Source of the DNA: Aphanomyces cochlioides
Taxonomy: Eukaryota; Oomycota; Saprolegniomycetes; Saprolegniales; Verrucalvaceae
DNA length: 64,000 nt
Reading direction: 5' to 3'
Assembly (NCBI GenBank): GCA_019828595.1
Contig: JAHQRK010000010.1
Span: 1,178,001-1,242,000 of the forward strand
The notes under the pieces are model-generated. The model had not been told where the DNA came from. It was given only the letters and a program-made list of their open reading frames with translations, and ran no database searches. Every line of letters begins with the position of its first letter. Within the stretch, counting starts at the first letter, position 1. The translations under genes were made by a program, and so were the position numbers. Below, one piece after another: positions 3,248-42,537 of the stretch.

Positions 3248-3347
3248 GATTAATATTTGGGTTTTGATTTTTTGACTTCAAGTCGTTGTGTTGGTTTGGG
3301 TCGGGGTGTGGTGATTGTGGTTTTAATTGATTTTGTGTGTTGGCGAG

Positions 3348-5873: not shown

Positions 5874-5954
5874 GACGTTGTCGAAAGCACCTAAAAAGCA
5901 AGATTTTCCGTTGGGGGGCTGTGGTAGTTTAACCTACAAAGCAAAAACGAAAGT

Positions 5955-8836
5955 CCACGCACAACGAAGCGGCTACATCTCACTTCTTTCGAAAGCCCCA
6001 ATCAAGTCGTTACGCAGTTCCTATCGTGGAATGTTATGACAGTGAAGGGAACATCACAGACATACCTGAAGAAATCCACCAAGCATTCAATAACCATTGG
6101 TCTGCAGTCATGACTGACGATGACGTCGTGTCAAACAGAAACACTGAAGAGCTCAACTCCTTCCTTGAAGTCCTGGAACGCGAACTGTCGGAGGACGAGT
6201 CCGCTTCGCTAGATATACCAGTGACAGCGGCGGAACTCGCTCAATCCATAAGAACAATGAATCCACACAAGTCGCCTGGCATCGATGGATTCCCAGCTTG
6301 TTTTTACCAAGTGGACTCACTTCTCTTCGGCGAAATTCTACGAATTGTGTTTCAAGATCGAAGTCGCAAGGGAAGCTTACTTGACTTCCAGCGATGGTCA
6401 GCAATCTCATTGCTCTTCAAGGGCGGCGACCGTCGGAATCCCGCCAACTATCGTCCCATTGCATTGATTCCAGTGGAGGTGAAGGTCTTGTCGAGAGCTT
6501 TGGCCTACAGGCTATCGCATGTATTGCCAAGTATCATCCAACCAGAGCAAAATGGATTCGTCAAAGGCAGACGTATTCATGATCACGTCATTTTCCTTCA
6601 AGATCTTCAGCATTATTGCACAATATTCAGTGAAGAAGCTTACGCCATGTTCTTGGATTTCGAGAAAGCTTATGACCGCGTGAACCACAACTTCATGTAT
6701 CAAGTACTCCAAAAGTTTAATGTGGGAGACAACTTTATTAACTGGATCAAACTCCTCTACAAAGACACCAAAGTAAGTTTGAACATCAATGGAGAACTTA
6801 CACAGCCGTTCCATCCAACGCGGGGAGTCAAGCAAGGCGACCCTTTGTCTTCAATGTTGTTTGTGATGACGATCGAGCCACTTGCACAATTGTTGCGCAA
6901 CCACCCGGAGCGCGGCTTCGCCTTTTCCAACGCAGAAGGAGGGATCGCTTCGGTCCTCTTGTTCGCAGACGACACAACCCTTGTTTCTGGATCTCTGGTA
7001 GACCTTGAAGCGCAATTGCAACTTGTCGACAAGTTTTGTCGTCACTCTGGTGCCAAGTTAAACAGGAGCAAAAGCAAAGTACTCACTCTCGACAGCAAAC
7101 AGCCCGTTGTCCACCACCCGAGATTGAATATGGTTCCCAGTGGAATTCCAGTCAAGTATCTGGGCATCCACCTAGGTCATAACTTGGATCCAAACCTACA
7201 AATCAAAACCATCACCGACAAGTTCTACAAATCCTTCACCACTTGGGCGTGTCGAGCGAGAACGATCAAAGGTCGAAGATTACTCGTAAACACCATGCTC
7301 CTATCACAGTTGTGGCATTACACCATGGTTTTACCAATTCAAGACAGTACCATTCAGCAGTGGCAATCCATGGTGAACAAATTTGTTCTCAGTCGCAGGA
7401 CTCAAACGACAGAAAAATATCTGGCTCTTGCTGCTGGTGGCCTTGTGCACGACCCAAAAATTGGCTTGAAAGTGCCTCACATAGCCTCAACTATTCGCAA
7501 ACAACGACTCATACGGCTCCAGCTTCTAGTCAAAGAGGAGCATGATACATCGCAATCGTGGGCAATTTTACCTTCAGATCGATTGCGCCGATGTATGAGC
7601 CCATATTCTCGTAATGATCGGTGGGATTTCTTGGTATACCATCCATCGCTCAACAACAAGCTTGTCCAACGCAATTTGCTGTCGCCATTATGGCAAGACA
7701 TTTGGAAGCATTGGGCCAAAATTCCAATGACTGCCAAAACGCCACATGAACCTACAATTCATCAGATGATCCAAATGCCGATTTGGTTGTCGTCGCACCC
7801 ACTGTTCCAAGTGTCCGGTCGAGAGGGGACGTCTTCCTTGGCGATCAAGTTGAAAAATCATCGCGATTGGTATCGTCACTTGGCCCGCAGTGACTTTCAA
7901 AGCTTGCAAGATTTCTTGACTCCAACAAGGACATGGCCAACCTACGACGAATTCAAAGCCATGATGACCGCACTCGAAGACGACTTTGTCGATGACTCAC
8001 CAATTCCAACGAGTTTCCAACACTTCTACAAGCTCTTGACCTCAATGGCAACCGATGTTTGGACTCAGGCTGACGTGCCGGTTGCAGGTGCAGTTCCACG
8101 TAGTCCTGAACAACAAAGCTTCATTGTCTTTCGACACAATGAACAAGATATACCTTTCTGTTCCTGGACAGCCAAGATACTGAAGCAGATAACCTTCCAT
8201 GCACCGCCAATGACGAAGAAGCATCCCCTAGAAACATCAATGAGACCAGACAAGAAAACGATCAGCGTTTACCTGTTGAGATACGTCAAGCCATTGTCCA
8301 AGATTGTTACACCAGTTCAGGCGGACGTTTGGTTTCGTGCTATCTATGACATTCTTCCCGTTAGCGACAAGTTTCGATTCATGGAATCTGCTCACCCCAA
8401 TGCTGTACAATGCTGCTATCCCCGTTTGTTACCTCACAGAGAAGCTTGGGGTCCATTCGGAGTACGCTTCAGTTGGGATTGGATTGAAAATCTTGACTCC
8501 TTTCAAGTCGCAAGGCGTTGGTCTTCGCACAAGGACTTGTTGCACCAGTTATGGTTCATGTTGATGTGCACCATCCTTCATCTCCTATGGACACACCGCA
8601 ACCGAGTCAAATTCGACAATGCTCCAACACCATACATACCTGCTCTCAATGATATCGCGTTCACGTTTTGGAGTTCAAACGTCCGCCGATGGCTTCGTCA
8701 AAATAACGATGAGCAGACGCTCCAAACCATCAACCGCATTCTTGTTGTCCTAAAACGACAAACTCAATACAAGGAATATTTCAAACGACATACCAAGGCG
8801 TTTGCAAGTCATGGACGCGGAGGATCAACTTCATAA
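5955..8836 (+). pseudogene. beta1 ORF2 fragment: reverse transcriptase, zinc-knuckle deleted
   Basis: Open frame encoding the reverse transcriptase and C-terminal part of beta ORF2; the endonuclease is absent. RT motifs are intact: NYRPIALIP, GFVKGRRIHDH, MFLDFEKAYDRVNH, RGVKQGDPLSS and FADDTTL. A 60-nt in-frame deletion around 8420 replaces 22 residues of beta3 by RL, removing the second Cys, the His and the last Cys of the CX3CX7HX4C motif while keeping the frame. The stop at 8834-8836 matches beta2 and beta3. Without endonuclease, ORF1 and the knuckle it cannot support its own mobility. Confidence 0.88.
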
Positions 8837-9028
8837 AAATCGACTCGCCTTCTTCAGCCAACATAAAGCCGCTCCAAATTTCAAGAGTGGATTTGAACTT
8901 GATCGATCCAATGCAAATTCAAACTAAATTTTCAAGTTAGAAGTGATTCTAGCTGACCAACTTACTTGCAGCCAAGGCAAACTTGAAATCAAACCAAAAA
9001 ACACAAGAAAAATTGGTAATTTAAGGCT

Positions 9029-9079
9029 GAATTACAAAATTAAGAATTTGGGCAGCGCTTCGCGTGAAATCGGCGAGAA
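9029..9079 (+). other. 3' UTR block conserved between alpha and beta
   Basis: Contains GGGCAGCGCTTCGC followed by AAATCGGCGAG, preceded by an AATTACAAAATTAAGAA-type stretch. The same block lies in the alpha 3' UTRs (near 20091-20140 and 39981-40030) and in the other betas (near 30917-30968 and 50807-50858), although the surrounding UTRs have diverged. It may be a functional RNA element; role unknown. Confidence 0.5.
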
Positions 9080-9912
9080 ATTTCTTGAAGACTTAGCGAT
9101 TTTCAGAAGGTTTCGTCGCAAACCAAAAGCAAACTAAGCAAAAGTCAAGCCACAAAAACAAAGAAGAAACTTACCGAAAGTTGGTGAACGGGCCGCCCAT
9201 AGCTGCGCTCGTGTGCTAACCCCCACGTTTCTTCGCGCTTTCTTGAAGTCGAAAATCGCCAAACTTGATCGCCAACAAACACAAAAAGCAAATATCGCGC
9301 GCGCTCGCCACCCTACACAAACAAGTCATCAAAGCCAAAGTCGCCAAACCTCCTTTTCCGACGAAGTCTTGACTTGACCGCTACCCCCGGGGGCTCCAAC
9401 AAAGGAGTAAAAAGAAAGGGACACCCAAAATCAAGGCCAAAGGCCGAAAGGCATAAAGCCATAAAGAGACAAACCCACAAAGAGGCAAACCCAAAGCACT
9501 CAATCCACTTCTACGGACACGAACTGACCAGGTTCTTAGCCCTGCATCCATGCATGAAGGGAGTCAGCCAACATACACTTCCGCAGAACTGTCCGGCTCC
9601 ATGAATTGAGGCCAAAAAATGTCGAAGCAAGTCAACCGCTACCCTCAGACCGGGGTCATTGCGAGAAGACGTCCATATGCGTAGAGAGCCCTCCAGGAAG
9701 GCCCCCATCGCTGGCAGTTCAGACTCCTTCTACCACCCCTTCCTCCGACAAGCGAAGTACACAGGATGGTCGCCATTCGGAGCCATAGCTTCAAAAAACC
9801 AAGTCTTGAACGCCTTGATGTCTTCAACGCCTTGAAATTCTTCCTTGGAAACGCCCATCGTAGCAGCAGCACCACGAACATGGAGAGGAAGCAGCCAAAG
9901 CACCATGAGCGT

Positions 9913-10433
9913 AGAGACGAAAGCGACAGCGACACGGCCAAAACAGAGACAAGCGAGCAGCCACACGGCAGAGACGACAGCGACAGCGACACGGCCAAAA
10001 CAGAGACAAGCGAGCAGCCACACGGCAGACACGACAGCGACAGCGACACGGCCACAACAGAGACAAGCGAGCAGTCACACGGCAGACACGACAGAGACAG
10101 CGACACGGCCAAGACAGAGATAAGCGAGCAATCACACGACAGAGACAGCGACACGGCCAAGACAGAGACAAGCGAGCAGCCACACGGCAGACACGACAGA
10201 GACAGCGACACGGCCAAGACAGAGACAAGCGAGCAGCCACACGGCAGAGACGACAGAGACAGCGACACGGCCACAACAGACACAAGCGAGCAATCACACG
10301 GCAGACACGACAGAGACAGCGACACGGCCAAGACAGAGATAAGCGAGCAGCCACACGGCAGACACGACAGAGACAGCGACACGGCCAAGACAGAGACAAG
10401 CGAGCAGCCACACGGCAGAGACGACAGCGACGG
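9913..10433 (+). repeat. 57-bp minisatellite in beta1 3' UTR
   Basis: About nine tandem units of 57 bp, one of them shortened, each with a GACACGGCCA core and a GACAAGCGAGCAG segment. The period is a multiple of three, so several frames stay open on both strands. One plus-strand frame reads as a 19-residue hydrophilic repeat (SEQPHGRDDSDSDTAKTET). I treat it as noncoding because the open frame is not the same in beta2 and beta3. Confidence 0.9.
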
Positions 10434-11020
10434 CAACAACGAGCTTCAATGCAGAGGGAACAACGTCGGACAAGCAAGGCCAAACCACGGACGAGAAGGA
10501 ACGCAAACGAGAGGCAAGCAACCAAAGCGAGGCAACGGAGAGGCAGCCTGACGGTGTGTTGGGCAGCAGGCAAATCGGAAAATGAACCCGCAGCCATTAA
10601 ATCCACAAAGAAGTTCTCCAATCTCATCCTCAAGAATTTCACACTACCCAACGAGTGGACTCCAAGATGCCCTATACAAAAATCAAGATACAAGATGTGG
10701 CCGAAGAAACATTTGGACACAGCGCACCCATGTTCCGACAATGACGCGCCATTGAGACAAGAAATCTGCTCCGTCCAAGATGAGTCCAACCAACATTTGG
10801 ATATTTCCTATGGCACTGGTCCCGTCCAAGATTAGTCAAGCCAACATTTGGGAGTTCTCCAGATGATGGCCCCGTCCAAGATTGTTCCACAGCCATCTGA
10901 TGACGAAGACCAGACACTACTGTCCCATGTCTACACCACCCAAGACCAGTCACCTTGTCACGAAACATGATGACCCTCACCCAAGTCCAAGATTCGACGT
11001 GTCAAGTGTCAACATTGCAC

Positions 11021-11168
11021 TGTATCAACTGATACAACAGAAATCAAGTTTCAAGAGGTAAAACTTCTTGAGTTCAAATCTCACAAGCACCAATATTATT
11101 CACTCAAGAGTGATTAATGACGGTCATTACTATTTAGCGTATAATTAAATTTAATATACGCGATTGTA
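11021..11168 (+). other. Structured 3' terminus of beta1
   Basis: Last 148 nt of the element, nearly identical in alpha and beta copies. Hairpins: TGTATC/GATACA at 11021-11036, TCACTC/GAGTGA at 11100-11113, TAATGAC-G-GTCATTA at 11115-11129, and GCGTATA/TATACGC at 11137-11161. The element then ends in GATTGTA with no poly(A) tail. This is the expected place for the RNA signal recognised by the element's own reverse transcriptase. Confidence 0.7.
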
Positions 11169-11185
11169 CACTGAGCTATAGGGGC
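11169..11185 (-). repeat. 17-bp target-site duplication (tRNA-Thr nt 1-17)
   Basis: CACTGAGCTATAGGGGC, the reverse complement of the first 17 nt of the tRNA-Thr(CGT) gene. It follows the beta1 3' end directly and precedes the 2-kb array unit. The full tRNA that should lie at the element's left end is not in the window. Confidence 0.9.
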
Positions 11186-12038: not shown

Positions 12039-12041
12039 GAG

Positions 12042-12114
12042 TATCGATGGAGGGGATCGAACCCTCGATCTCAAGCGTGTGAAGCTTGCGTCCTAACCAC
12101 TAGACGACATCGAC
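12042..12114 (-). tRNA. tRNA-Val (anticodon CAC), copy 1
   Basis: A 73-nt cloverleaf read on the minus strand. The acceptor GTCGATG pairs with CATCGAT (one G-U), the D-arm is GTCTAGTGGTTAGGAC, the anticodon stem CAAGC/GCTTG carries loop TTCACAC, and the T-stem GAGGG/CCCTC carries loop TTCGATC. Discriminator A; no intron and no encoded CCA, as usual for nuclear eukaryotic genes. It decodes GUG. A T-run terminator follows, so Pol III expression is plausible. Confidence 0.94.
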
Positions 12115-13114: not shown

Positions 13115-13186
13115 AGCCCCCACGCGGGATCGAACCACGGACCTTTCGCTTACGAAGCGAGTGCTCTACCACTGAGCTATAGGGGC
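13115..13186 (-). tRNA. tRNA-Thr (anticodon CGT), copy 1, LINE target
   Basis: A 72-nt cloverleaf on the minus strand. Acceptor GCCCCTA pairs with TGGGGGC, D-arm is GCTCAGTGGTAGAGC, anticodon loop TTCGTAA, and T-stem CGTGG/CCGCG carries loop TTCGATC. The first base pair of the anticodon stem is a C-A mismatch. It decodes ACG. Its 5' end touches the first base of LINE alpha1 with no spacer. Because Pol III promoters are internal (box A TAGCTCAGTGG) and a T5 terminator follows, the gene can remain active despite the insertion. Nucleotides 1-17 are repeated at the far end of the LINE. Confidence 0.93.
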
Positions 13187-13246
13187 ACTTTTACTTTTGC
13201 CGTCAACCACTCAAGTCAACAGCCAAAGTAAGGTACCCCTCGACCA

Positions 13247-15804
13247 ATGTCGTCTACCGCTGCCGCCGATGCTGCCAAGCCCTCTATGCCGAATGTCTCC
13301 TCCGTGAAGTACCTTGTCCCTTCTGGTCCACCAGTGGACGAGCAGGGTCCGACGCCGTCTCCTTCCGCCGACGCTCAAGATCGCCTTCTCCACGCACCCG
13401 CCAACGAAATCTCTGTCGAGTCCAACGCGAGCGAGTCCGACAAGCGCCATGAAGATGGATTCCACCACGCCGAAGATGCCAATATGTCCCAACAAGCCCC
13501 TCCACCCGACCAAGCTAACGACCCTGCGCCGCGCCGAGTTATCATCGATCTCTCCGATCCAGTTGGTGCTCCGCCGCGCGAGAGTCCTCCTCAAAAAGAA
13601 CAAGAACAACCCAAGAAAAAATCCTATGCCGACCTACTCAAGGGCGATCAAGACAATGCACCTCCGAAACGAGTCAAGACTGTCGTCAACCGCCCCAAGC
13701 CGGAGTACCTCAGCAAACTCATCGACCTCGCGAGCCAAGAAGATGCAAACGAGGAAGACTTGCTTGAGGCCATCTCGCAGGCGACCCCAGTCAAGGTCAA
13801 GAAGGCCACCACCACGATGTGGATCGAAACTGATGGAGCCTTCTCCGACAAGGCCTATACCAACGAGAAGATCATCGACGCGATCTTCAAGGAAAACCAA
13901 GATGCCGAATGGGCGTACCTCCTATTGGAATTCGTTCAACTCAACAAAACGCGCACCGGCGACATCGTCGTGTCCATTACCTCGCGCGACGTGAAGGACA
14001 TGCTCGCTGGGAAAACCATTTCGATCTTCGGCAAGGAGTTCACGATTCCAGTGCCTACGGTCAAGGTCAGCGGATCATCTCAAGAATCGAACGACCCGAT
14101 GGACAAGTTCTTCTTATGGACATCGTGGGCATTCGATTCAACTTCGACTCTGTCAAGCTCTTCCGTTTGCTACGACGTTTGAAGATGAAGCCAATCTTTC
14201 AAGCGTATCGGCAACACATACCCAATGTCTCCTGCCAGTCCAATGTGTGGCGCGTCTACTTCTTGGAGGCAGAAGTCCCCAAACAACTAGTCGTCAACGG
14301 TCATCCAGCAGACCGACTGAAGATGGATGGTGTGGCCTACAATGTGTTTGTCAAGAACTTCCAACGCTCGGCTTCTCGCACCTCTTCTGCTTCACCTCAT
14401 TGCTTGGACTTGGACCACGCCGCAGCGTTGATGCAAAGTCCGGAGAAGCAAGTGCCGGAACCAGAAGGACAAGGCGCAGTGGACCAAGGAGCCAAACAAA
14501 CCAAACGCGCCAAAGTCAACGAGGAAAAACAACACGAAGAACCTATAATCCAAGGTCAGGGTGAAGAGTCACAAAATATGGAAGTGATCCCTCCTCATAC
14601 CGAGCCAAAATCAAACGAAGAACCTTTACTCCAGGGTAGAGAGGAAGAGCCACAAGACATGGAAGTCACACCTCTAGAGACCGAGCCAATTGTTCCTCCT
14701 GCTTCATCGCAGTTGAGCACCAACATGGAAGTCGATCCAAAATCAACTAAACGCACCACGAGTCAATCTGTCGACGAAGATGGATTTGTTGTACCTCGTT
14801 CGAAGAAGCGAGTAGCCGCTGCACAAGCGTCCCCATCATTTGTATCGTGGGCCTCCGACAACTTCTTCAATGCTCTCGCAACCATCGAAGCAACTACTAT
14901 GCCAGTGGATTCTCAGCATGAAACACCAACTCGTGTGTACATACCTGCGATCAAGAAGATCCCAGAAGAAAGCTTGAAAGCACGTGACGCCTTCGTGAAG
15001 AGGCAACATGTTGTCGACAGCAAGCTTTGCTGGCACCCAGACAACCTCACCATGGAGGAGCTTGTCCAAGTGCTCCAAGCCAGCGTTGGGGAAGGAGCTG
15101 CCTTCCAACACCACAACCAAGCCAACACCACGGACATCTCCGGAACGGAACTTGATGTTGTCGACTACATACGTCGATGCAACGTTGACGGACTCTGGAA
15201 AGTCATCCATTCCCACACCCAAAGCATGAACGTCGTCCTAACCAAGTTAGCCACACATACGTACAGTGATTACCTCAAGGTCGTCCGTATGCACGCTTGG
15301 CAACGTTGGATGTCGGCGACACAACTACCAGTGGTCGATTCATTCACGAATGGATTCAAGTTTACCTTTCAAGAACATCCAAAGTGGACCAGGCTTGAAG
15401 AAATCTCAAGCGTCTTGGGTTTCTTCGAGGACGCACCAAAACACCCTGCCTTCCCAACGGATCAAGTGGAAGATGCTCTTGCCGCTTTCGAACTATGGAT
15501 CGCTGTGCAAGCTCCGTTAGTCTTCAGAAATGACGCATGGATCTTGTACCTCACTCGTCAGCCAGTAGCGTGGCTTCCAGCCAAACATGGCCGCATGTTG
15601 GCACCATCCACGCTCTGGGCTTTGCTGAAGTCGCTGTTCGGGCAATACTTTGCGGAAGAACTGAATCGTGTGTGCAAAACCGAGATGTCTTCGCGGATAT
15701 GGCAGCTCAGTATTGATGCCTACCAGCCTACAGACAGCTCGTTAACAGCATTCGTTGGCAACGACAATACCCGCCTGCAACGCAGGAACAACTTGTTGTA
15801 CTAA
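13247..15804 (+). pseudogene. alpha1 ORF1, broken by a 1-nt deletion
   Basis: Same protein as alpha2 ORF1, starting at ATG 13247, but the TTCTTTATGG of alpha2 reads TTCTTATGG near 14111-14119, one T short. The frame then runs to a premature stop at 14182. The remainder is open in the next frame through to TAA 15804, including the conserved C-terminus. Only the first third of the protein would be made. A homopolymer miscall in the assembly is an alternative. Confidence 0.88.
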
Positions 15805-18800
15805 GGTCCTCGCGGCTTCAGTGCAGCCAACTTCATCGCATCCAAACCAACAACCACCACAGCCAACGTTCCCCAACTCTTCACTTGTCAACTTGTCCAT
15901 TGTCACGGCCAATATAAATGGCCTTTCGAGAGACAATGGAAACCAACTTGTCAATACCATGATCTCACGGAACGAGATCGTTGCCCTACAAGAAACCAAA
16001 TTTGCCAGTGAGAAGAAATTCTCCACGTTCATGTTTCACCTTGCTCACGCTCTTGGTCATGACAAGTACTTCATTGCTGCCAATGACCATCGGCTTCTGG
16101 GAGGCGAACTTGAACAATACCGATCTGGTGGCGTCGCCATGATCTTCCAACACACCATCCCTGGCTTCAGCACACTTCACCATGAACGCCAATACGACAT
16201 CGAAGATCGCTACATGGTGGTCAGTTCAATGTGGGGAGACGACCCCATCTACTACCACAATGTCTACGCACCTGTTGAAGACAGCGAGCGAGACGCCTTC
16301 TTTGATGCCTTGCCACGAAACTTCCCAATCGCGTCCAAACATGTCGTCATGGGAGACTTCAATCTCCCGATGGATCGAGCATTGGACTCAAGAGGCTCCA
16401 CCACCTCAAACCACCAAGTCAACAGGCAGTCTTGTTTCGCGTGGCTACAAGAACTTGAGGTCGTCGACGCCTGGAGATCTTTCAACCCCACGAAGAAGGT
16501 TTACTCTTCGCCGAAGGGACTCAATCGGCTTGATTACATCTTCCTTCAGCCTGCCTTGTGTCGAATGTATTCTGCTGGCGAGTACTTCGAGCCTACAGCA
16601 AACACAGATCACTTATGGCACAAAGTGGAGCTCCAACCAGTAAAAACAACACGCGTCAAGAGCTACTGGAAGCTGCCAAAAGAACTTTTGGCGATCCGAG
16701 AAGTTCGAGAGGCGATTGTGTCCGAAGCCAGCGAACTGCTCGAGCGACTGCGGACATCGAACCAGCCAGGGGTCTTGTGGACTCAATGGCAACGCCGCAC
16801 CAAACGCTTTCTTCAGAAATATCACGCTCGAATGGTAACGAACCAAAAGAACGCACTTCAAGAGGCCAAGATCCAATGGCTACAAGCTCAGTTACGACAT
16901 CATCACGGACGCCTCACCGAAGCAGCTCTCAATACTGCAAGGACACAGTATGAGACCAAGAAGCAAGACTTGAAACAGCACCACGCGGACTTGAGTTTTG
17001 ACTTCCACGCCACCCAAAACGAGGCACCGACAAGTCATTTCTTTCGCAAACCACGCGCTCGGCAGTTTTCCATACCTATCGTCGAATGTTACGACGAACA
17101 AGGAAACGTCACTGCCATACCAGAGGAAATTCATGCAGCATTCAATCGTCATTGGTCGGCGGTGATGAGTGAAGGCGACTTTCAACCTACAAGTCCACAA
17201 GAGAAGTCACAGTTCTTGAATGTACTTGAGAGAAACTTACCCCAAGACGATTCAGAGGCTTTGGATGCGCCGTTGACGATCGAAGAGCTAGCGCAATCCA
17301 TCAAGACGATGAATCCTCACAAGTCACCTGGAATAGATGGGTTCTCGGCTGGCTTTTACCAGCTACATCCAGCCTTGTTTGGCGAAATCTTGTCGGTAGT
17401 CTTCAACCACCAACTTCAGGAAGGCATCATGTTGGCCTCGCAACGCTGGTCCGCCATATCGTTGCTCTTCAAAGGCGGCGATCGACGCAACCCAGCGAAC
17501 TATCGACCCATTGCCTTGATTCCAGTTGAAGTCAAAGTCCTATCGCGCGCGTTAGCGTATCGAATGTCACAAGTCTTACCGTTGATCGTCCAACCCGAAC
17601 AAAATGGCTTCGTCAAAGGCAGGCGGATCCATGATCATGTCATCTTTCTGCAAGACCTTCAACATCATTGCACCACCTTCAATCAAGAAGCCTACGCGAT
17701 GTTCCTGGACTTTGAAAAGGCCTATGATCGTGTGAATCATGAGTTCATGTTCGCCGTTTTGAAGAAATTCAATGTTGGAGATCACTTCATTGATTGGGTT
17801 AAGTTACTTTACAACCAAACTCAAGTCAGTTTGAACATCAATGGCAGACTTACCGATCCATACTATCCATCGCGAGGAGTCAAGCAAGGCGATCCGTTGT
17901 CTTCGATGCTTTTCGTCTTGACGATAGAACCGCTCGCTCAAATGCTTCGCAATCATCCCGAGTATGGTTACGCTTTCTCGGACTCTGGGATCGCTTCCGT
18001 TCTTCTCTTCGCCGACGACACATCGCTCATCTCCAGCTCCGTGGGCGACTTGGAAGAACAGCTTAAGCTCGTCGACGAGTTTTGCCGTCACTCTGGAGCA
18101 AAACTCAATCGCAGTAAGAGCAAAGTCTTGACGCTAGACAACAATCAATCAGTATTCCAACATCCAAGATTGAACATGGTACCAAGTGGAACGCCAGTGA
18201 AATATCTTGGGATTGAACTGGGACACCAATTGGATCCTATGCTTCAAATCAATGCAATCAGCGATAAGTTTTACAAGTCGTTTACCACGTGGGCGTGTCG
18301 AGCAAGAACCCTCAAAGGCAGGCGGTTGCTTGTGAAAACGATGATCCTATCACAGCTTTGGCATTACACGATGGTGCTACCGATACCAGACAATACCGTG
18401 CGAAAATGGCAGTCTATGGTCAACAAGTTTGTCATGAGTCGACGCACGCAAGCCGAAGACAAGTATTTGGCCCTTGCTCCAAGTGGCTTGATCCATGACT
18501 CGAAGACGGGCTTCAAAGTGCCGCATATTGCTTCAGTGATTCGAAAACAAAGAGTCACTCGTCTTCAACTCCTAGTCCAAGCTGATCAAGAAGAGCCTCC
18601 ACAATGGGCAATCTTACCGACAGATCGCTTGAGTCGTTGCATGTATCCATACCCTCGAGTGACAAATTGGGACTTCATGATGTATCATCCTAGCCCAAAC
18701 AATAAGCTCGTCCAGTTCAAGTTGCTCTCACCGTTTTGGCGCAATGTCTGGAAGCAATGGGCTCAAATTCCAATGACAATGAAGACACCACACGAGCCTA

Positions 18801-19927
18801 CGCTGAGTCAGATGACACAAATGCCATTGTGGATGTCGTCGCACCCTCTCTTTCAAGTCCCGGGTCGAGACGGGATATCGTCGCTTGCAATCACGCTTCA
18901 AAACCATCGCGACTGGTACAGACACCTTGCTCGAAGAAGCATACACTGCCTTGAAGACTTGTTGACTCCAGGTCGAACGTGGCCAACCTACGATGAGTTT
19001 CGTGAGTCGATGGAAGACCACCTAGATCACTTCGTCGAAGAATTACCTGTCCCGACATCCTTCAAGCACTTTTACAAGCTGGTGACGCTGATTGCAACGA
19101 ATGTTTGGACTCAAGCCAACAAGCGGCTAGACGCCCCGGTTGAAAACGATCCTAGTCCGCAAACGGTGATTTCATATCGACAAGGAGATGTCGACGTACC
19201 GTTCAAGTCGTGGACAACGAAAATCATCAAGCGAGTGAGCTTCCATGCTCCTTTGTTAACGCGGCCGCATCCCTTCCACTCTAGCACACGTGAGACTCGA
19301 GCGAAAATCGCCAAATACCTTTCACATTTTGTCAAGCCTTTTGCCAGTCTTGTGACGCCAGTTCAAGCAGATCTTTGGACGCGAATTCTCTACGACATCA
19401 TCCCAGTGGGCAATAAATTCAAGTACAAGGAGGCCACTGTCCCAAGAGCACTTCGATGCTGCTACCCGAATTGTTATGCGCGAGAAACATTGCGGCACTT
19501 GTTCATGGAATGCACAATCACACGAGATCTTTGGCTACAACATCGTGAGGCATGGAGTTTGTTTGGGGTTCGCTTTACCTGGGAGTGGGTCGAAAACATC
19601 GATGCTTTTCAAGTCGCGCAGCGATGGGCTCGATATCGAGACGTTCTCCATCGGCTCTGGTTTATGCTTGCTTGCGGCATTCTTCACCTCCTATGGACAC
19701 ACCGAAACAAAGTCAAGTTTGACGGAGCCAAGACACCACACTTACCAGCGTTGAACGATGTTGCGTTGACTTTTTGGGCGTCTAATGTCCGCCGATGGCT
19801 TCGCCACATTCACGATCAAGACACCTATCAACAGGCAATGATTATCCTTGGATTGTTAAGACACCGTGGTTCGTACCGCCGATTTTTGAGTAAACATCCC
19901 GCAATCTTCAAGTTCAAGTTGGCTTGA
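15755..19927 (+). CDS. alpha1 ORF2: APE endonuclease-reverse transcriptase
   Basis: Intact frame of 1390 codons overlapping the end of ORF1 in the +1 frame. Order: endonuclease (TANING, QETKF, YRSGGVAM, GDFN, NRLDYIF, TDHLWH), linker, reverse transcriptase (NPHKSPGIDGF, NYRPIALIP, GFVKGRRIHDH, FLDFEKAYDRVNH, RGVKQGDPLSS, FADDTSL) and a C-terminal CX3CX7HX4C motif followed by a WTHRNKVKF-type segment. No ATG precedes the catalytic TANIN motif; the frame's first codon is TTG and the first Met is about residue 69. Translation probably depends on frameshifting from ORF1. Predicted role: nicking the tRNA-Thr gene and target-primed reverse transcription. Confidence 0.93.
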   Translation: MATTIPACNAGTTCCTKVLAASVQPTSSHPNQQPPQPTFPNSSLVNLSIVTANINGLSRDNGNQLVNTMISRNEIVALQETKFASEKKFSTFMFHLAHALGHDKYFIAANDHRLLGGELEQYRSGGVAMIFQHTIPGFSTLHHERQYDIEDRYMVVSSMWGDDPIYYHNVYAPVEDSERDAFFDALPRNFPIASKHVVMGDFNLPMDRALDSRGSTTSNHQVNRQSCFAWLQELEVVDAWRSFNPTKKVYSSPKGLNRLDYIFLQPALCRMYSAGEYFEPTANTDHLWHKVELQPVKTTRVKSYWKLPKELLAIREVREAIVSEASELLERLRTSNQPGVLWTQWQRRTKRFLQKYHARMVTNQKNALQEAKIQWLQAQLRHHHGRLTEAALNTARTQYETKKQDLKQHHADLSFDFHATQNEAPTSHFFRKPRARQFSIPIVECYDEQGNVTAIPEEIHAAFNRHWSAVMSEGDFQPTSPQEKSQFLNVLERNLPQDDSEALDAPLTIEELAQSIKTMNPHKSPGIDGFSAGFYQLHPALFGEILSVVFNHQLQEGIMLASQRWSAISLLFKGGDRRNPANYRPIALIPVEVKVLSRALAYRMSQVLPLIVQPEQNGFVKGRRIHDHVIFLQDLQHHCTTFNQEAYAMFLDFEKAYDRVNHEFMFAVLKKFNVGDHFIDWVKLLYNQTQVSLNINGRLTDPYYPSRGVKQGDPLSSMLFVLTIEPLAQMLRNHPEYGYAFSDSGIASVLLFADDTSLISSSVGDLEEQLKLVDEFCRHSGAKLNRSKSKVLTLDNNQSVFQHPRLNMVPSGTPVKYLGIELGHQLDPMLQINAISDKFYKSFTTWACRARTLKGRRLLVKTMILSQLWHYTMVLPIPDNTVRKWQSMVNKFVMSRRTQAEDKYLALAPSGLIHDSKTGFKVPHIASVIRKQRVTRLQLLVQADQEEPPQWAILPTDRLSRCMYPYPRVTNWDFMMYHPSPNNKLVQFKLLSPFWRNVWKQWAQIPMTMKTPHEPTLSQMTQMPLWMSSHPLFQVPGRDGISSLAITLQNHRDWYRHLARRSIHCLEDLLTPGRTWPTYDEFRESMEDHLDHFVEELPVPTSFKHFYKLVTLIATNVWTQANKRLDAPVENDPSPQTVISYRQGDVDVPFKSWTTKIIKRVSFHAPLLTRPHPFHSSTRETRAKIAKYLSHFVKPFASLVTPVQADLWTRILYDIIPVGNKFKYKEATVPRALRCCYPNCYARETLRHLFMECTITRDLWLQHREAWSLFGVRFTWEWVENIDAFQVAQRWARYRDVLHRLWFMLACGILHLLWTHRNKVKFDGAKTPHLPALNDVALTFWASNVRRWLRHIHDQDTYQQAMIILGLLRHRGSYRRFLSKHPAIFKFKLA
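15796..15804 (+). other. Candidate +1 frameshift site, alpha1
   Basis: TTG TAC TAA. Skipping the T of the ORF1 stop places ribosomes in ORF2 at AAG (Lys), giving KVLAA. The surrounding bases are conserved between the two families. Confidence 0.55.
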
Positions 19928-21627
19928 TTACTCCGGCTCGATTAGTCAACATGATGGATCTACAAGTTGAAGTGAGATCTTTGTTTGAATTGAAGCAAAC
20001 TTACCCGCAAGCGTGCCAAAGTTTTGAAGGCAAGTCCAACCAAGTTGAAATTCAACTACAAAAATCCAGAAAAATCGACAATTCAAGGGTGAATTACGAA
20101 ATTAAAAAATTGGGCAGCGCTTCGCACAAAATCGGCGAGGTCTTTCGGAAAGACTTGGTGGTTTTCGCCAACTTCGCTTGAAAAAGCAAGAAAAAAACAA
20201 GCTAAGCACAAAAGTCAAGCAAAAACAAAGGAAACAACTTACGAAGTTGGTCGAATGGACCTCGGATGGCTGGCCCGGCGTAGCCAATTCCCACCTTCTT
20301 GGACGCGCCGACGACGAATCATCGGCGCCAAAATGGGCGACCGGTCGCAAAAATCGCTCGCTTTCCTAAACAAGTCATACCAACAAGCACGAGATACAAA
20401 CCAAGCCAAATCGCTGAAGTCTTCCTTGAAGCCCCGGGGCATCCCCTTGAGACAAAGTCCCAAGGGTTGAAAGTCGCGGCCGAAGCCACGACTCGACGGC
20501 GGCAAAGTAAAAAGGCAACGCGCCCTCAAGAAGTATCCGGGTAGGGGGACTACCAACTGGCCTAGGAGCGATCGGAGGTATCCCCCCCTCGTCACACCCC
20601 ACAGCCAGCTTTTTTCGGCACTCCAAGCGACACGCTGGCGACTCCACAAAAGCAGAGCCGACTTGGAAAAAAGTCTTCGCGCTTTTCTTCCTTGAACGCC
20701 TTGGACGCCTTCTTCTCAAAAGCCAGCCGAATCAAACCACGAGCAGAAAGACGGGTGAGGCCCTGCGTCCCGACACTCACGAAGGGACGGAGATTTGACC
20801 GCTCGCTATTCGCTCCAGCTGGCTCTTGTTCTTGAACGCCTTGAATCTTGTCTTCCTTGAAGCCCATCGCCTTCTTCAGCCTTCGTGTATCGCGGTCGCA
20901 CCCATCGCACCCATGGCAGATCGCACCCACGGCAAGTCGCACCCACGGCAAGTCACACGAGCGTCGGCATAGCAAGCGGCAAAAACACGGCAGCACGGAC
21001 ACGGTAGCGGCAACAACGACACGGCACAGCAAGCGACCACAGCAGCAGCAGCACGGCACACCAAGCGGCAACAACAGCACAACACGACCACGAACAGCAA
21101 CAGCAGCGGCCAAACGAAGCAGCAGAGTGACAGTATCACGGCGGCATGGCAGCGGCAAAATTGAAAAATGGCCAAGGAACTTTTCAAAACATCCTCAAGG
21201 AAGTTCTCTGCCACTCAAAATTTTCAAGTCCGGCAAGAAAAAAATCCAGTGAACTTCCTCAGGCAAGACCATACAAACATCAAGACACGATCAACGACCC
21301 AAGAACATGCGACCACAAGGCACCCATGACGACTGCACAATCGACGGTGACGCACCAACGTTCAACGACGATGGCACTTTGCGACAAGAAAAAATCCAGT
21401 GGAAGATTAGTTCACACATCATCTGGTGCCAATGGTCCTGTCCAAGATTAGTCAAAGCAACATGTGGACGTTCTGAAGCCAGTCCAAGATTACTCCACAC
21501 CCATCTGACGTCGAAGACAAGACAAGTCTGTCCCATGTCCACATCACCCAAGACCATTCATGTTGTTACACGACTTGAAGACCACAATCGACAGCACATG
21601 CGACGTGTCAAGAAGCCAACTTTTACC

Positions 21628-21774
21628 TGTATCAACTGATACAACAAAATCAAGTTTCAAGAGGTAAATCTGCTTGCGTTCAAATCTCACAAGCACCAAT
21701 ATTATTCACTCAAGAGTGATTAATGACGGTCATTATTATTTAGCGTATAATTAAATTCAATATACGCGGTTGTA
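21628..21774 (+). other. Structured 3' terminus of alpha1
   Basis: Same four hairpins as in beta. The last part reads GCGTATA...TATACGC, then a final GGTTGTA in place of the usual GATTGTA. It is 147 nt here, one A shorter after the first hairpin. Confidence 0.7.
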
Positions 21775-21791
21775 CACTGAGCTATAGGGGC
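21775..21791 (-). repeat. 17-bp target-site duplication after alpha1
   Basis: CACTGAGCTATAGGGGC, identical to nt 1-17 (reverse complement) of the tRNA-Thr at the element's left end. Confidence 0.95.
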
Positions 21792-22644: not shown

Positions 22645-22647
22645 GAG

Positions 22648-22720
22648 TATCGATGGAGGGGATCGAACCCTCGATCTCAAGCGTGTGAAGCTTGCGTCCT
22701 AACCACTAGACGACATCGAC
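22648..22720 (-). tRNA. tRNA-Val (CAC), copy 2
   Basis: Identical to copy 1: 73-nt cloverleaf, anticodon loop TTCACAC, terminator immediately downstream. Confidence 0.94.
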
Positions 22721-23720: not shown

Positions 23721-23792
23721 AGCCCCCACGCGGGATCGAACCACGGACCTTTCGCTTACGAAGCGAGTGCTCTACCACTGAGCTATAGGGGC
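23721..23792 (-). tRNA. tRNA-Thr (CGT), copy 2, LINE target
   Basis: Identical to copy 1. Its 5' end directly abuts LINE beta2; nt 1-17 (23776-23792) recur at 33060-33076 after beta2 and at 41665-41681 after alpha2. Confidence 0.93.
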
Positions 23793-23875
23793 ACTTTTTA
23801 CTTTTGCCGTCAACCACTCAAGTCAGTAGTCAGTTCAAGTAAGGTACCCCTCCCGCCTCCCAAGTGAAGTGAAGT

Positions 23876-26569
23876 ATGTCGTCCACCGCCACGTCAGCTA
23901 CCGCCAATGCTCCCAGCGCTCGCGTCTTTGAAGATTCTTATGGTCGCATGCCTAATGAAAACAATCACCACGATGAAACCTCGTCCTTTGCACCTCTTGT
24001 CGATGCGCCGATGACCGAACCACCGCTCGTCGCGAGCACCTCTTTGGACTCTCGTGAGGATGCTGATCACTTGTCGCAGCCTCCAAACGAGTGTCGTGAA
24101 TCACTGGAACCTTCCACCGACTCGAACGCTCGAAACGTTCCAAGTCCCGAGCCAACCGCCGAGTCTCACAACCGAGACGATGCGCCGCTCGCTCGCGCTG
24201 CTGAAGCCGCAATGAGCGCTCCTGGCTCAAATGACTCGCCACCTAATGAAGAAACATCACCACCAACTCCTTCGAACAACGCACCTGGCACTCGACTCCA
24301 TGTCGACCTCTCGGACCCCGAAGGAACTCCGCCACGTGTCGTGCAACCAGCACCTCAAAAATTGACCTATGCGGATTTGTTACGCAAAGGGGTAGGGAAA
24401 CCTACTACGGAGCGGGTGAAGACCGTCTTGACCCGCCCGACGACCGAGTATCTCGACAAGTTGATGCAACTTGCTCGCAACGAAGAAGCTGACGAGGATG
24501 AAGTCCTACAAGTCATTTCAGACGCCACACCTTCGAAACCAAAAACAGCTACCGCCACAGTGTGGATCAAAACGGGCGACGCTTTCAAAGACCGCGAGTT
24601 CTCCAATGAGAAACTCATTGCCGCAATCTTCAAGGAGAACGCCCAGGCTTCTTGGGCTCACCTCTTGCTCGAGTTTGTTCAACTCAACAAGGCACGCGAT
24701 GGTGATATCGTGGTGTCTATCACGTCGCCATTCGTTCGCTCTGAATTGGAAGGTCAAGAGATCTCCATCTATGGCAAGTCGTACCCATTCTCGACAGCCA
24801 CAACCAACAAGACGCCGCGTCACTTCTCGGGAGGATCAAAAGCGCCAAAGGACCCAATGGATGCACTTTACTTCATGGATATTGTTGGTATCCGTTTCAA
24901 CTTTGATACGGACAAACTGTTTCGCCTATTGAAGCGACTCAAGACAAAACCAGTCTTTCAAGCGTACCGTCAACATTTACCCAATATCACGTGCCAGTCG
25001 AATGTGTGGAGGGTTTACTTCTTGGAGTCAACCGCTCCTAATCAACTCATTGTTAACGGACACGCCACCGATCAATTGCGCATGGACGGCGTAACCTACA
25101 ATGTCTTCGTCAAAGACTACGAAAAGTCAAGCCAACGTACGGGCGCGCGTTCTCCTCATTGCTTGGATCTTGACCAACTCGTGGAATCTATGGCTTTACA
25201 GCCGTCAAGTCCCCACAAGGAAGAAGAATCAGAATCGCAACAACAACCCAAGCGTCCAAAGACCGACGACCAGCCACCCCGCGAAGCAGCTAAGCCTCAG
25301 CAGGAGGAACAAGGCGAGGAAATGGAAGTCGAGGAGTTGCACCAAGGCTCCAACCAAACGGAAGAACCTCAGCAGGAGGAACAAGCCGAGGAAATGGAAG
25401 TCGAGGAATCCAATAATGATCCCAATCAACAAACGAACGACAGCACCTCCTCCCTTGATGGCCGCAACGCTGATAAGGGAGAAGAGATGGAAGTCGATGC
25501 CAAATCTACCAAGAGAAACACAAGTCAGACCGGCGAAGAAGACGGATTTGAAGCACCACGACGCAAGAAGAGAACGGCAGTTCAGCAGTCATCGCCGACT
25601 GTCAAGTCGTGGGCATCCGACAACTTCTTCGATGTCCTCAATCAAATCGAGGCCAGCACACGCACACTTGAAATACATCAAGATGTTTCAACTCGAGTGT
25701 ACATACCAAAAGTCAACAAACTCCCCACCGACGTAGCGGCCATGAAGTCTGCCTACGTCAAGAAGCAACACGTCGTTAGCAACAAACTCGACTGGCATCC
25801 AGACAACCTTACCATGGAAGAGTTCATGAATGTCCTGCAACAAAGTGCTGAAGACGGAACCTCCTTCGAGCAACACACTCAAGTCATCGCAACCACAGAC
25901 TACTCAGGAACAGAACTTGATGTAGTCGATTCGATCCGACGGTGCAATGTGGACTCTTTGTGGAAGATAATCCACACGCAACCTCAAAGCATGAACGTCG
26001 TGCTCACCAAACTCGCTATCAATTCGTACCATGAATACTCCAAAGTCGTCCGAATGCATACCTGGCATCGATGGATTGCCGCGACTCAACTTCCTTTAGT
26101 GGATTCATTCACCAACGGGTTCAAATTTACGTTCCAGGAACACCCACGGTGGTCACGACTTGAAGAAATCTCAAACTCTCCCGAGTTCTTCAAGGACGCC
26201 GCAAACCATCCAGCCTTTTCATCTGAGCACGTCGAAGACGCCCTCTCAGCATTCGAGTTATGGCTCTCTGTCCAAGCACCGTTAGTCTTCAAGAATGACA
26301 TTTGGCTACTTTACCTCACACGCCAACCCGTTGAGTGGCTCCCAACCAAGCATGTAAGGATGCTTGCATCGAATACGCTCTGGGCGCTGTTGAAATCGTC
26401 GTTTGGACAACAATTCGCAGAGGAATTGCACCACTTGTGCAAAACGGAAATGACTTCGTGGATCTGGCAACTCAGCCTAGACGCATATCAACCTACAAAC
26501 AACTCGTCAATGGCATTCGTCGGCCAGGACAATACCCGTCTGCAGCGCCGACACATCCTCTTGTACTAA
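23876..26569 (+). CDS. beta2 ORF1 protein (putative RNA-binding LINE ORF1p)
   Basis: Intact 897-codon frame, homologous along its length to alpha ORF1. The N-terminus (to about residue 150) is P/S/E-rich and disordered-looking, followed by LHVDLSDPEGTPPR. A first folded region contains VWIKTGDAF and LLEFVQLNKARDGDIVVSIT. A second begins YFMDIVGIRFNFD and ends near YNVFVKDYE. Acidic repeats with EEMEVEE follow, then an NLS-like RRKKR. The conserved C-terminal half ends RLQRRHILLY. No CCHC is visible. By analogy it binds element RNA; I cannot assign a Pfam family by eye. Differences from beta3 include E/D and L/S. Confidence 0.85.
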   Translation: MSSTATSATANAPSARVFEDSYGRMPNENNHHDETSSFAPLVDAPMTEPPLVASTSLDSREDADHLSQPPNECRESLEPSTDSNARNVPSPEPTAESHNRDDAPLARAAEAAMSAPGSNDSPPNEETSPPTPSNNAPGTRLHVDLSDPEGTPPRVVQPAPQKLTYADLLRKGVGKPTTERVKTVLTRPTTEYLDKLMQLARNEEADEDEVLQVISDATPSKPKTATATVWIKTGDAFKDREFSNEKLIAAIFKENAQASWAHLLLEFVQLNKARDGDIVVSITSPFVRSELEGQEISIYGKSYPFSTATTNKTPRHFSGGSKAPKDPMDALYFMDIVGIRFNFDTDKLFRLLKRLKTKPVFQAYRQHLPNITCQSNVWRVYFLESTAPNQLIVNGHATDQLRMDGVTYNVFVKDYEKSSQRTGARSPHCLDLDQLVESMALQPSSPHKEEESESQQQPKRPKTDDQPPREAAKPQQEEQGEEMEVEELHQGSNQTEEPQQEEQAEEMEVEESNNDPNQQTNDSTSSLDGRNADKGEEMEVDAKSTKRNTSQTGEEDGFEAPRRKKRTAVQQSSPTVKSWASDNFFDVLNQIEASTRTLEIHQDVSTRVYIPKVNKLPTDVAAMKSAYVKKQHVVSNKLDWHPDNLTMEEFMNVLQQSAEDGTSFEQHTQVIATTDYSGTELDVVDSIRRCNVDSLWKIIHTQPQSMNVVLTKLAINSYHEYSKVVRMHTWHRWIAATQLPLVDSFTNGFKFTFQEHPRWSRLEEISNSPEFFKDAANHPAFSSEHVEDALSAFELWLSVQAPLVFKNDIWLLYLTRQPVEWLPTKHVRMLASNTLWALLKSSFGQQFAEELHHLCKTEMTSWIWQLSLDAYQPTNNSSMAFVGQDNTRLQRRHILLY
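26561..26569 (+). other. Candidate +1 frameshift site, beta2
   Basis: TTG TAC TAA followed by AGTCCTCGCGGC, shared with alpha. Skipping T continues as KVLAA in the ORF2 frame. Confidence 0.55.
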
Positions 26570-26585
26570 AGTCCTCGCGGCTGTT

Positions 26586-29500: not shown

Positions 29501-30726
29501 GCAATTTGCTGTCGCCATTATGGCAAGACATTTGGAAGCATTGGGCCAAAATTCCAATGACTGCCAAAACGCCACATGAACCTACAATTCATCAGATGAT
29601 CCAAATGCCGATTTGGTTGTCGTCGCACCCACTGTTCCAAGTGTCCGGTCGAGAGGGGACGTCTTCCTTGGCGATCAAGTTGAAAAATCATCGCGATTGG
29701 TATCGTCACTTGGCCCGCAGTGGCTTTCAAAGCTTGCAAGATTTCTTGACTCCAACAAGGACATGGCCAACCTACGACGAATTCAAAGCCATGATGACCG
29801 CACTCGAAGACGACTTTGTCGATGACTCACCAATTCCAACGAGTTTCCAACACTTCTACAAGCTCTTGACCTCAATGGCAACCGATGTTTGGACTCAGGC
29901 TGACGTGCCGGTTGCAGGTGCAGTTCCACGTAGTCCTGAACAACAAAGCTTCATTGTCTTTCGACACAATGAACAAGACATACCTTTCTGTTCCTGGACA
30001 GCCAAGATACTGAAGCAGATAACCTTCCATGCACCGCCAATGACGAAGAAGCATCCCCTAGAAACATCAATGAGACCAGACAAGAAAACGATCAGCGTTT
30101 ACCTGTCGAGATACGTCAAGCCATTGTCCAAGATTGTTACACCAGTTCAGGCGGACGTTTGGTTTCGTGCTATCTATGACATTCTTCCCGTTAGCGACAA
30201 GTTTCGATTCATGGAATCTGCTCACCCCAATGCTGTACAATGCTGCTATCCCCAGTGCTACGAACGCGAGACTAAGCAGCATCTATTCATGGATTGCCGA
30301 CGGATCCGCAGTGTTTGGTTACCTCACAGAGAAGCTTGGGGTCCATTCGGAGTACGCTTCAGTTGGGATTGGATTGAAAATCTTGACTCCTTTCAAGTCG
30401 CAAGGCGTTGGTCTTCGCACAAGGACTTGTTGCACCAGTTATGGTTCATGTTGATGTGCACCATCCTTCATCTCCTATGGACACACCGCAACCGAGTCAA
30501 ATTCGACAATGCTCCAACACCATACATACCTGCTCTCAATGATATCGCGTTCACGTTTTGGAGTTCAAACGTTCGCCGATGGCTTCGTCAAAATAACGAT
30601 GAGCAGACGCTCCAAACCGTCAACCGCATTCTTGTTGTCCTAAAACGACAAACTCAATACAAGGAATATTTCAAACGACATACCAAGGCGTTTGCAAGTC
30701 ATGGACGCGGAGGATCAACTTCATAA
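26586..30726 (+). pseudogene. beta2 ORF2, broken by a 2-nt deletion in the endonuclease
   Basis: Same protein as beta3 ORF2, but CTAGGCATGTCG of beta3 reads CTAGGTGTCG near 27113-27120, losing CA. The first frame stops shortly afterwards, just before the GDFN motif. The remainder, including GDFN, the whole reverse transcriptase (FADD) and the CX3CX7HX4C motif, is open in the shifted frame to 30726. The RT portion is otherwise undamaged, so the lesion is probably recent or a sequencing error. Confidence 0.9.
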
Positions 30727-31757: not shown

Positions 31758-32240
31758 GACAAGCGAGCAGCCACACGGCAGAGACGACAGCGACAGCGAC
31801 ACGGCCAAAACAGAGACAAGCGAGCAGCCACACGGCAGAGATGACAGCGACAGCGACACGGCCAAAACAGAGACAAGCGAGCAGCCACACGGCAGACACG
31901 ACAGCGACAGCGACACGGCCACAACAGAGACAAGCGAGCAGTCACACGGCAGACACGACAGAGACAGCGACACGGCCAAGACAGAGATAAGCGAGCAATC
32001 ACACGACAGAGACAGCGACACGGCCAAGACAGAGACAAGCGAGCAGCCACACGGCAGAGACGACAGAGACAGCGACACGGCCACAACAGATACAAGCGAG
32101 CAATCACACAGCAGACACGACAGAGACAGCGACACGGCCAAGACAGAGACAAGCGAGCAGCCACACGGCAGACACGACAGAGACAGCGACACGGCCAAGA
32201 CAGAGACAAGCGAGCAGCCACACGGCAGAGACGACAGCGA
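31758..32240 (+). repeat. 57-bp minisatellite in beta2 3' UTR
   Basis: Eight tandem units with the GACACGGCCA core. It has fewer units than beta1 and the same number as beta3. The rest of the 3' UTR (30727-33059) shows no gene. Confidence 0.9.
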
Positions 32241-42534: not shown

Positions 42535-42537
42535 GAG

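Follow-up and report, generated by a model that had tools for sequence, protein, structure and literature searches.

L1-like retrotransposons of the oomycete Aphanomyces cochlioides located at a fixed base within box A of tRNA genes

In a 64,000 nucleotide (nt) stretch of the Aphanomyces cochlioides genome (contig JAHQRK010000010.1, hereafter C2, positions 1178001–1242000; "the window"), long interspersed nuclear elements (LINEs) of two families, alpha and beta, adjoin the 5' ends of tRNA-Thr(CGT) genes. Together with a third family, gamma, these are site-specific LINEs, most copies of which are at one sequence-defined site. It is very likely that these oomycete non-long terminal repeat retrotransposons, which are L1-like and of the apurinic/apyrimidinic endonuclease (APE) type, insert by target-primed reverse transcription (TPRT) at a fixed base inside tRNA genes. 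The evidence consists of fixed junctions, 14 bp duplications, many tRNA identities, varied truncations, empty sites, and the retention of endonuclease and reverse transcriptase (RT) motifs.

The window sits in a tandem array whose units, approximately 2002 bp long, contain one tRNA-Val(CAC) gene and one tRNA-Thr(CGT) gene apiece. Large tandem tRNA arrays have been described in another oomycete, Phytophthora infestans (PMC9584435). Of the 18 tRNA-Thr(CGT) genes called by ARAGORN in the window and the neighbouring stretches, nine are occupied by an element and nine are empty, with the native 5' flank GGACATAC directly adjoining. A search for such empty sites had been proposed in a preliminary description of this DNA, and they are found in the same array. 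The tRNA-Val genes provide an internal control, being interrupted in none of 19 array units; 17 of the unit alignments extend across all 2002 bp and two are partial, yet each is one unbroken match spanning the tRNA-Val.

The sequence CACTGAGCTATAGGGGC occurs exactly nine times in the window, against a mean of 0.04 in shuffled sequences (up to 3 mismatches), and is identical to nt 1–17 of the tRNA-Thr(CGT) genes called by ARAGORN on the minus strand (Table 1). Its places are 11169 (right of beta1), 13170 and 21775 (alpha1), 23776 and 33060 (beta2), 33060 and 41665 (alpha2), 43665 and 52957 (beta3), and 52957 and 54183 (alpha3). All nine are where the preliminary description had placed a 17 nt repeat flanking these elements, and its identification of the repeat as tRNA-Thr(CGT) nt 1–17 on the opposite strand agrees with the called genes. 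The element boundaries that it gave are also correct, save for one extra C (43682) at the 5' junction of beta3 and the splitting of beta1 by another LINE, zeta. Genome-wide searches, here and below, covered the 76.2 Mb assembly of 94 contigs (numbered C2 and so on). Its elongation factor 1-alpha shares 96% identity with a protein assigned to Aphanomyces stellatus, the top value among 120 relatives listed, in keeping with a host within Aphanomyces or near it. The exact 17-mer is present 33 times, always inside C2:1070982–1232199, a region of approximately 160 kb. At one same base in this array are found full-length alpha (8588 bp), full-length beta (9267 bp), a 38 nt end fragment, alpha fragments beginning at element positions 7381 and 7881, and a beta fragment from 8446. 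Full-length and truncated copies of a further family, epsilon, are likewise at this base.

The 3' ends of alpha, beta and gamma were located across the genome with the element-only pattern TAATTAAATTYAATATACGCGATTGTA, giving 80 ends at up to 3 mismatches, a count that more diverged ends escape; the reversed pattern found none. There are 65 of these ends outside the C2 array. All 80 read GTA-CACT and 68 match CACTGAGCYA. The 12 exceptions were sorted by eye, eight being variant joints (TAAGCTA in three, TGATCTA in two, TGCGCTA in two, and one slipped joint). The complement of box A or a close variant is therefore next to 76 of the 80 ends, and to 61 of the 65 outside the array. Among the bases following the element, position 4 is always T, G at position 5 and C at position 8 are each present in 77 of the 80, and positions 11–17 are variable. 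The letters past box A come from different tRNAs, with 26 different 17-mers among the ends outside the array. The preliminary description had called for this tabulation and had held that a majority of copies with non-tRNA flanks would show the array to be the product of one duplicated event; the flanks are the reverse of this. Its target, tRNA-Thr(CGT), is too narrow, the site being instead the box A of many tRNAs and that of a tRNA-derived short interspersed nuclear element (SINE).

A pattern for the common 5' end identified 61 copies. The upstream flank was read at all 61, and flank classes were tallied by hand. ARAGORN called a tRNA at 24 of them. Of these, 21 are whole genes: Thr(CGT) in five cases, Thr(AGT) in four, Phe in three, Cys, Trp and Met in two each, and Asn, Lys and Ile in one each. 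The other three calls are tRNA-Ala, and belong to a group of eight 5' ends that abut the 5' half of a tRNA-Ala gene which zeta or the SINE has interrupted at the anticodon arm (one half judged by eye); ARAGORN completed these three with zeta letters. The 86–88 nt tRNA-Ala calls (C22:20967, C24:248275, C34:320235, L015) were accordingly rejected as whole genes, their 3' half being zeta sequence. A further 24 of the 61 ends are preceded by the 3' end of another LINE and a box A complement (alpha, beta or gamma in nine, delta, a family described below, in eight, epsilon in seven), one adjoins the head of the tRNA-derived SINE, and seven have tRNA-like upstream sequence without an ARAGORN call. 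A covariance tRNA model matched 13 of 20 five-prime flanks, two of them just under the Rfam cut-off, and missed seven. Precise, repeated and sequence-specific insertion at tRNA 5' ends with regeneration of the gene, the central proposal of the preliminary description, is borne out by these junctions.

For 52 of the 61 copies a 3' end was found in range, and the length of the duplication was measured between the T of TGAGC and the 5' joint. It is 14 bp in 40 pairs, 13 bp in two, 15 bp in four, 16 bp in two and 17 bp in one, with none in three. The 49 pairs with a duplication have 24 different duplication sequences, and the 14 bp form is tRNA nt 1–14; for alpha1 this is at 13173–13186 and 21778–21791. 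Between the duplication and the 5' end of the element, 20 of the 49 pairs have 1–5 extra bases, often C (e.g. C23:3364650, C24:44407), which may reflect untemplated addition or 5' heterogeneity.

The position of the first nick can be estimated from the letters to the left of the duplication. At 32 of the 49 sites these three letters are not CAC, being from a tRNA or tRNA-like sequence in 19 and from a delta or epsilon end in 13, while the 3' junction reads CAC in all 32. One tRNA-Ala(AGC) gene, part of a tRNA-Ala/tRNA-His unit, carries none of these LINEs; it reads GGGGATGTAGCTCAGATGG and has AACAGTAAAAA upstream, a flank that also follows several occupied tRNA-Ala sites, where the gene reads GGGGATGTAGCTCAGTGTAC. 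The LINE-free site has GCTCAGATGG, as against GCTCA followed by GTGTAC at occupied sites. Taken together with the delta and epsilon ends, this suggests that the primer end is best placed after A14, as GCTCA^. The nick after nt 17 given in the preliminary description is contradicted by the same 32 sites and by the LINE-free tRNA-Ala. tRNA positions 1–14 have no length variation, and a duplication of 14 bp therefore points to cleavage of the second strand at the mature 5' end of the tRNA, as had been proposed. One joint with a repeated TGTACAC (7 nt) suggests that cDNA synthesis slipped as it began.

The elements have the anatomy of LINEs, with an open reading frame (ORF2) for endonuclease and RT, a constant 3' end, variable 5' truncation and target duplication. 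ORF2 identity is 85% between alpha and gamma, 67% between alpha and beta and 38% between alpha and epsilon. A Pfam search identified PF03372 (APE endonuclease) and PF00078 (RT) in ORF2 of alpha and beta, and alpha ORF2 has the motifs QETK, NVYAP, GDFN, LDY and TDH in the endonuclease and FADD in the RT, whose catalytic roles are presumed to be those of L1. The closest solved proteins in the PDB are L1 ORF2 at 186 bits, versus 101 bits for R2. In alpha2 ORF2 no RNase H or restriction-like endonuclease was above the Pfam cut-off, nor was any further domain after the RT, and alpha2 ORF1 had no Pfam match at E 0.1. Judged by these matches ORF2 is of the L1 type with APE and RT, a placement at the level of the L1/Tx1-like group. 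In a quick tree of 35 rows, 30 picked from 120 listed relatives and five from this genome, alpha, beta and gamma cluster with A. euteiches and A. astaci sequences, epsilon clusters with Thraustotheca and unnamed sequences, and zeta is on a long branch. Inheritance of one site by both alpha and epsilon would make the specificity older than the split between them. The last 148 nt of the shared 3' end, with the 7 nt that follow, fold better than shuffled sequences (z -2.8). A tRNA-like fold was considered for this region and rejected, as no cloverleaf is seen in the stable fold.

The same base is used by families with other 3' termini. The alpha, beta and gamma terminus ..TACAC, the delta terminus ..CATTGCAG and the epsilon terminus ..CATTGACAT all join before the same TGAGC, making three classes at the box A joint (..TACAC, ..TTGCAG and ..GACAT). 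The delta 3' pattern is present at 227 places and that of epsilon at 204, and patterns extended by the box A complement match at 223 and 203 places, respectively (up to 3 mismatches each); these counts include stacks and possible duplicates, and delta is known from its 3' end alone. Three epsilon copies in the array carry the 14 bp duplication TGAGCTATAGGGGC on both sides. Among the first 100 matches listed per family, delta and epsilon form stacks in which each end is joined to a box A complement, at C15:12021–266213, C34:2.53–2.79 Mb and 3.79–3.99 Mb, C13:1.40–1.56 Mb and C23:3.87–4.02 Mb. Several are near contig ends, and they run in one direction on C13, C15 and C34 and are mixed on C23. 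Two epsilon copies, C2:1109617–1117760 and C2:1142617–1150759, have a third open frame, 465 codons long, downstream of ORF2, and in the latter copy ORF2 is split over two frames.

These features are consistent with a TPRT mechanism of the following kind. The target would be a tRNA gene in which box A reads TRGCTCA or a near variant. The endonuclease of the element itself, recognising the DNA sequence, would nick the tRNA-sense strand after A14, and the freed 3' end would prime reverse transcription of the element RNA. The end of this RNA would specify the letters that follow: in the tRNA sense, GTG for alpha, beta and gamma and others for delta and epsilon. Subsequent cutting of the other strand at the mature tRNA 5' end would generate the 14 bp duplication of nt 1–14. 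The whole tRNA gene, including its two internal promoter boxes, would be kept beside the 5' end of the element, and occupied genes may continue to function. A second box A would remain at the 3' end of the element, where another LINE could land; re-use of this box A would explain the LINE stacks.

Table 1. Features of the window (positions within the 64,000 nt; C2 coordinates where indicated).
Feature	Position	Strand	Remarks
Zeta, second LINE lineage, nested in beta1	1–5954	-	whole copy C2:1174723–1183954, 9232 bp; 18 bp duplication CCACGCACAACGAAGCGG
LINE beta1, 3' part	5955–11168	+	5' part left of window, C2:1170710–1174722
CAC and 14 bp duplication right of beta1	11169–11185	+	
tRNA-Val(CAC), uninterrupted	12041–12114	-	ARAGORN
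Further tRNA-Val copies	22647–22720, 42537–42610, 55056–55129		ARAGORN
tRNA-Thr(CGT), alpha1 at its 5' end	13115–13186	-	ARAGORN
LINE alpha1, full length, 8588 bp	13187–21774	+	ends at 21777 if element-supplied CAC is counted
CAC (read as element-supplied) and 14 bp duplication TGAGCTATAGGGGC	21775–21791	+	then native tRNA 5' flank GGACATAC
tRNA-Thr(CGT), occupied by beta2-alpha2 stack	23721–23792	-	ARAGORN
LINE beta2, full length, 9267 bp	23793–33059	+	
CAC and duplicated target between beta2 and alpha2	33060–33076	+	
LINE alpha2, full length, both ORFs open	33077–41664	+	ORF1 33137–35695, ORF2 35646–39818
Alpha2 ORF2, 1390 aa	35646–39818	+	PF03372 residues 50–269, PF00078 residues 580–822
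3'-terminal ~350 nt common to alpha, beta and gamma	41315–41664	+	alpha vs gamma 96%, alpha vs beta 82%
CAC and 14 bp duplication right of alpha2	41665–41681	+	
tRNA-Thr(CGT), occupied by beta3-alpha3 stack	43609–43682	-	ARAGORN 74 nt call takes in extra C at 43682
LINE beta3, full length	43683–52956	+	ORF1 43765–46458, ORF2 46475–50617
CAC and duplicated target between beta3 and alpha3	52957–52973	+	
LINE alpha3, 5'-truncated, 1.2 kb	52974–54182	+	begins at about alpha position 7381; same junctions
CAC and 14 bp duplication right of alpha3, then native flank	54183–54199	+	

In alpha1, ORF1 is split over two frames. The 3' region of beta (9856–10602, 31723–32355 and 51620–52252) is a repeat array, mostly of 57 bp period, in which the minus strand is open for up to 353 codons.

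Several observations weigh against insertion at a fixed base. Four of the 80 3' ends have no box A (C8:1192092, C19:89041, C19:575645 and C22:798574), having only the first 2 to 4 letters of its complement (TGGA, TGAT, TGAC, TGAG); the copy at C19:89041 has a 15 bp duplication, starting TGATGACG. Nine of the 61 5' ends have no 3' end in range, and three of the 52 pairs lack a matching duplication, one of these showing the 7 nt repeat at its 3' joint. The other two of the three have tRNA-Cys at one end but tRNA-Trp sequence at the other, the arrangement of the full-length copies C23:3341046 and C23:3407832, as though recombination had exchanged the tRNA partners of different copies. The tRNA-Ala targets were already cut at the anticodon arm, so that some targets are not whole genes. 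The duplication data cover alpha, beta, gamma and epsilon, and the 3' search misses diverged copies. Within the array there are also duplicates, alpha with the alpha fragment from 7881 being found at two places, as is the beta fragment from 8446 with a beta cut at the identical point. Many copies, including those in the delta and epsilon stacks, may be segmental duplicates, and copy numbers are therefore not event numbers.

The presence of different families and different truncations at one base, with some combinations occurring twice, indicates that the array, as read from its sequence, is a mixture of true insertions and segmental duplication. The preliminary description had raised spread by segmental duplication as the alternative to specific insertion, and for part of the array, where identical truncation points recur, this is correct. 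As an account of the whole, in which one or a few insertions were multiplied by segmental duplication and gene conversion without any real target specificity, it is hardly credible: the families and truncations sharing one base are beside nine empty units, and the 65 ends outside the array have their 26 different 17-mers and adjoin tRNAs of varied identity. A single event followed by duplication was rejected for the family on the genome-wide 3' ends, and stands for part of the copy number. Tethering to the RNA polymerase III (Pol III) machinery through TFIIIC or TFIIIB, as for TRE5-A of Dictyostelium or Ty3 of yeast, with the endonuclease fixing only the exact base, would fit the main targets, which Pol III transcribes and which contain box A internally. 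TRE5-A needs a functional B box, and its ORF1 protein contacts TFIIIB (PMC5391098). Tethering is nonetheless unlikely here, as the tRNA-Val genes of the same array units are spared (0 of 19) and the joint is fixed to one base, with no window of positions. In 24 of 61 cases a further element adjoins the box A remnant at another element's 3' end, though this does not give the order of arrival in the stacks, and the four non-tRNA sites have only the first 2 to 4 letters of the box A complement.

Specificity might also come from base pairing between the 3' end of the LINE RNA and box A at any nick or break, and not from endonuclease recognition. The constancy of the bases at the joint (T at position 4 in every one of the 80 ends, G at position 5 in 77 of them), which extends to the four non-tRNA sites, agrees with this, as does the TGTACAC repeat, which looks like slippage at the cDNA start. 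The position of the second-strand cut is, however, fixed as well, with a 14 bp duplication in 40 of the 52 pairs, and one base serves families whose 3' termini differ. This makes pairing as the source of specificity decidedly unlikely; pairing and cutting may both contribute.

Zeta, the minus-strand element that splits beta1 with an 18 bp duplication, is a second LINE lineage with a different tRNA site. The first part of its ORF2 has 29% identity to alpha over approximately 700 residues; its RT is above the Pfam cut-off and its endonuclease domain is a weak match (E 0.47). The zeta 3' end is present at 134 places in the genome (reversed control, 5), and a zeta or SINE 3' end is joined to CCGCTTNGCATGCGG, of the tRNA-Ala anticodon arm, at 113 places (control, 0), neither count being a subset of the other. 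The usual zeta site is this anticodon arm (C24, C27, C22, C12 and others), and the copy in beta1 therefore looks like an off-target insertion into a similar sequence. The tRNA-derived SINE, of approximately 372 nt, has a 3' end similar to that of zeta and is found at the same tRNA-Ala site with a 16 bp duplication. Its own box A has been used by LINEs at C15:1154919 (both ends) and C5:377021 (3' joint). At C24:8800–10100 there are tandem tRNA-Ala(AGC)/tRNA-His(GTG) units of approximately 1204 bp with the SINE in the tRNA-Ala anticodon arm. Runs of similar spacing among the 113 junctions suggest that a tRNA gene was amplified after it had been interrupted.

A wider reading, held with less assurance than insertion at the fixed base but still probable, is that an APE-type LINE clade older than the alpha/epsilon split, and probably common to the Saprolegniales, recognises the Pol III box A itself through the GCTCA^ nick. 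Any tRNA gene or tRNA-derived SINE with the motif would be a target, and each insertion would provide a new box A, creating a self-renewing site and stacks at tRNA arrays, while zeta and its own SINE would have taken the tRNA-Ala anticodon arm. The box A geometry may let LINEs spread with little damage and land beside one another repeatedly, which bears on the growth and decay of oomycete tRNA arrays. The elements offer a clean natural system in which to study how an APE endonuclease gains sequence specificity and how the RNA end works together with the target as TPRT begins, and are candidates for use in targeted insertion into numerous repeated sites.

The restriction-like endonuclease of NeSL-type LINEs lies downstream of the RT, and Dewa is of the APE type. 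R1 is a further LINE that occupies one site of a multicopy RNA gene. Earlier descriptions exist of LINEs that lie inside tRNA genes and of others that lie next to many of them. NeSL-1_TV (tRNA-Pro), LIN15_SM (tRNA-Arg) and LIN25_SM (tRNA-Glu) are specific for tRNA genes, and are grouped with the NeSL clade and its relatives and treated as restriction-like-endonuclease elements (PMC4640811). Each of them uses one isoacceptor family, in contrast to one site in many tRNAs here, where PF03372 lies upstream of the RT. The preliminary description knew of no LINE with this exact geometry; LINEs specific for tRNA genes as such have precedents (PMC4640811). Dewa, of zebrafish, is also specific for a tRNA array, although it is in the tRNA-Leu spacer, not in the gene, and in one tRNA family (PMC3706591). 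R2, Keno, Mutsu and Utopia, like R1, occupy one site of a multicopy RNA gene, and tandem insertion has been noted for Utopia-1_NVit (R2, Keno, Mutsu and Utopia: PMC4640811, PMC3706591); the targets of all five are rRNA or small nuclear RNA (snRNA) genes, whereas here the tRNA is kept whole and the motif is common to many genes. The Dada DNA transposons of tRNA and snRNA genes share a fixed position within tRNA genes, with different families for different tRNAs, and differ in their DDE transposase and 6–7 bp duplications (PMC3706591).

Closest in position is Dp_NLTR-A of Dictyostelium purpureum, a LINE with an RNase H domain at the 5' end of tRNA genes, inserted 2–6 bp upstream of the coding sequence (PMC5006619). 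That distance is variable and outside the gene, and the description, in the portions available, contains no duplication of tRNA nt 1–14. TRE5-A and TRE3 of Dictyostelium are APE-type, L1-like LINEs that use many tRNA genes, tens of bp up- or downstream, with targeting attributed to contacts with TFIIIB and TFIIIC (PMC5391098, PMC5911963, PMC5006619). They insert at a distance and have a poly(A) tail, whereas the present elements have a fixed base in the gene and a 3' end without poly(A); their joints lie at nt 14/15 of the tRNA and at its nt 1, in contrast to the insertion outside the gene that marks TRE and NLTR elements. The open-access PMC literature searched contained no account of an APE-type LINE that is fixed to a single box A base across many tRNA genes, and within that literature such a clade is new. 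The LINEs known for one-base precision are mostly confined to one gene family, and those known to use many tRNA genes rely on host factors and insert at a distance. In the present case the motif apparently read by a small endonuclease is one conserved of necessity in Pol III promoters, and the tRNA gene is left complete.

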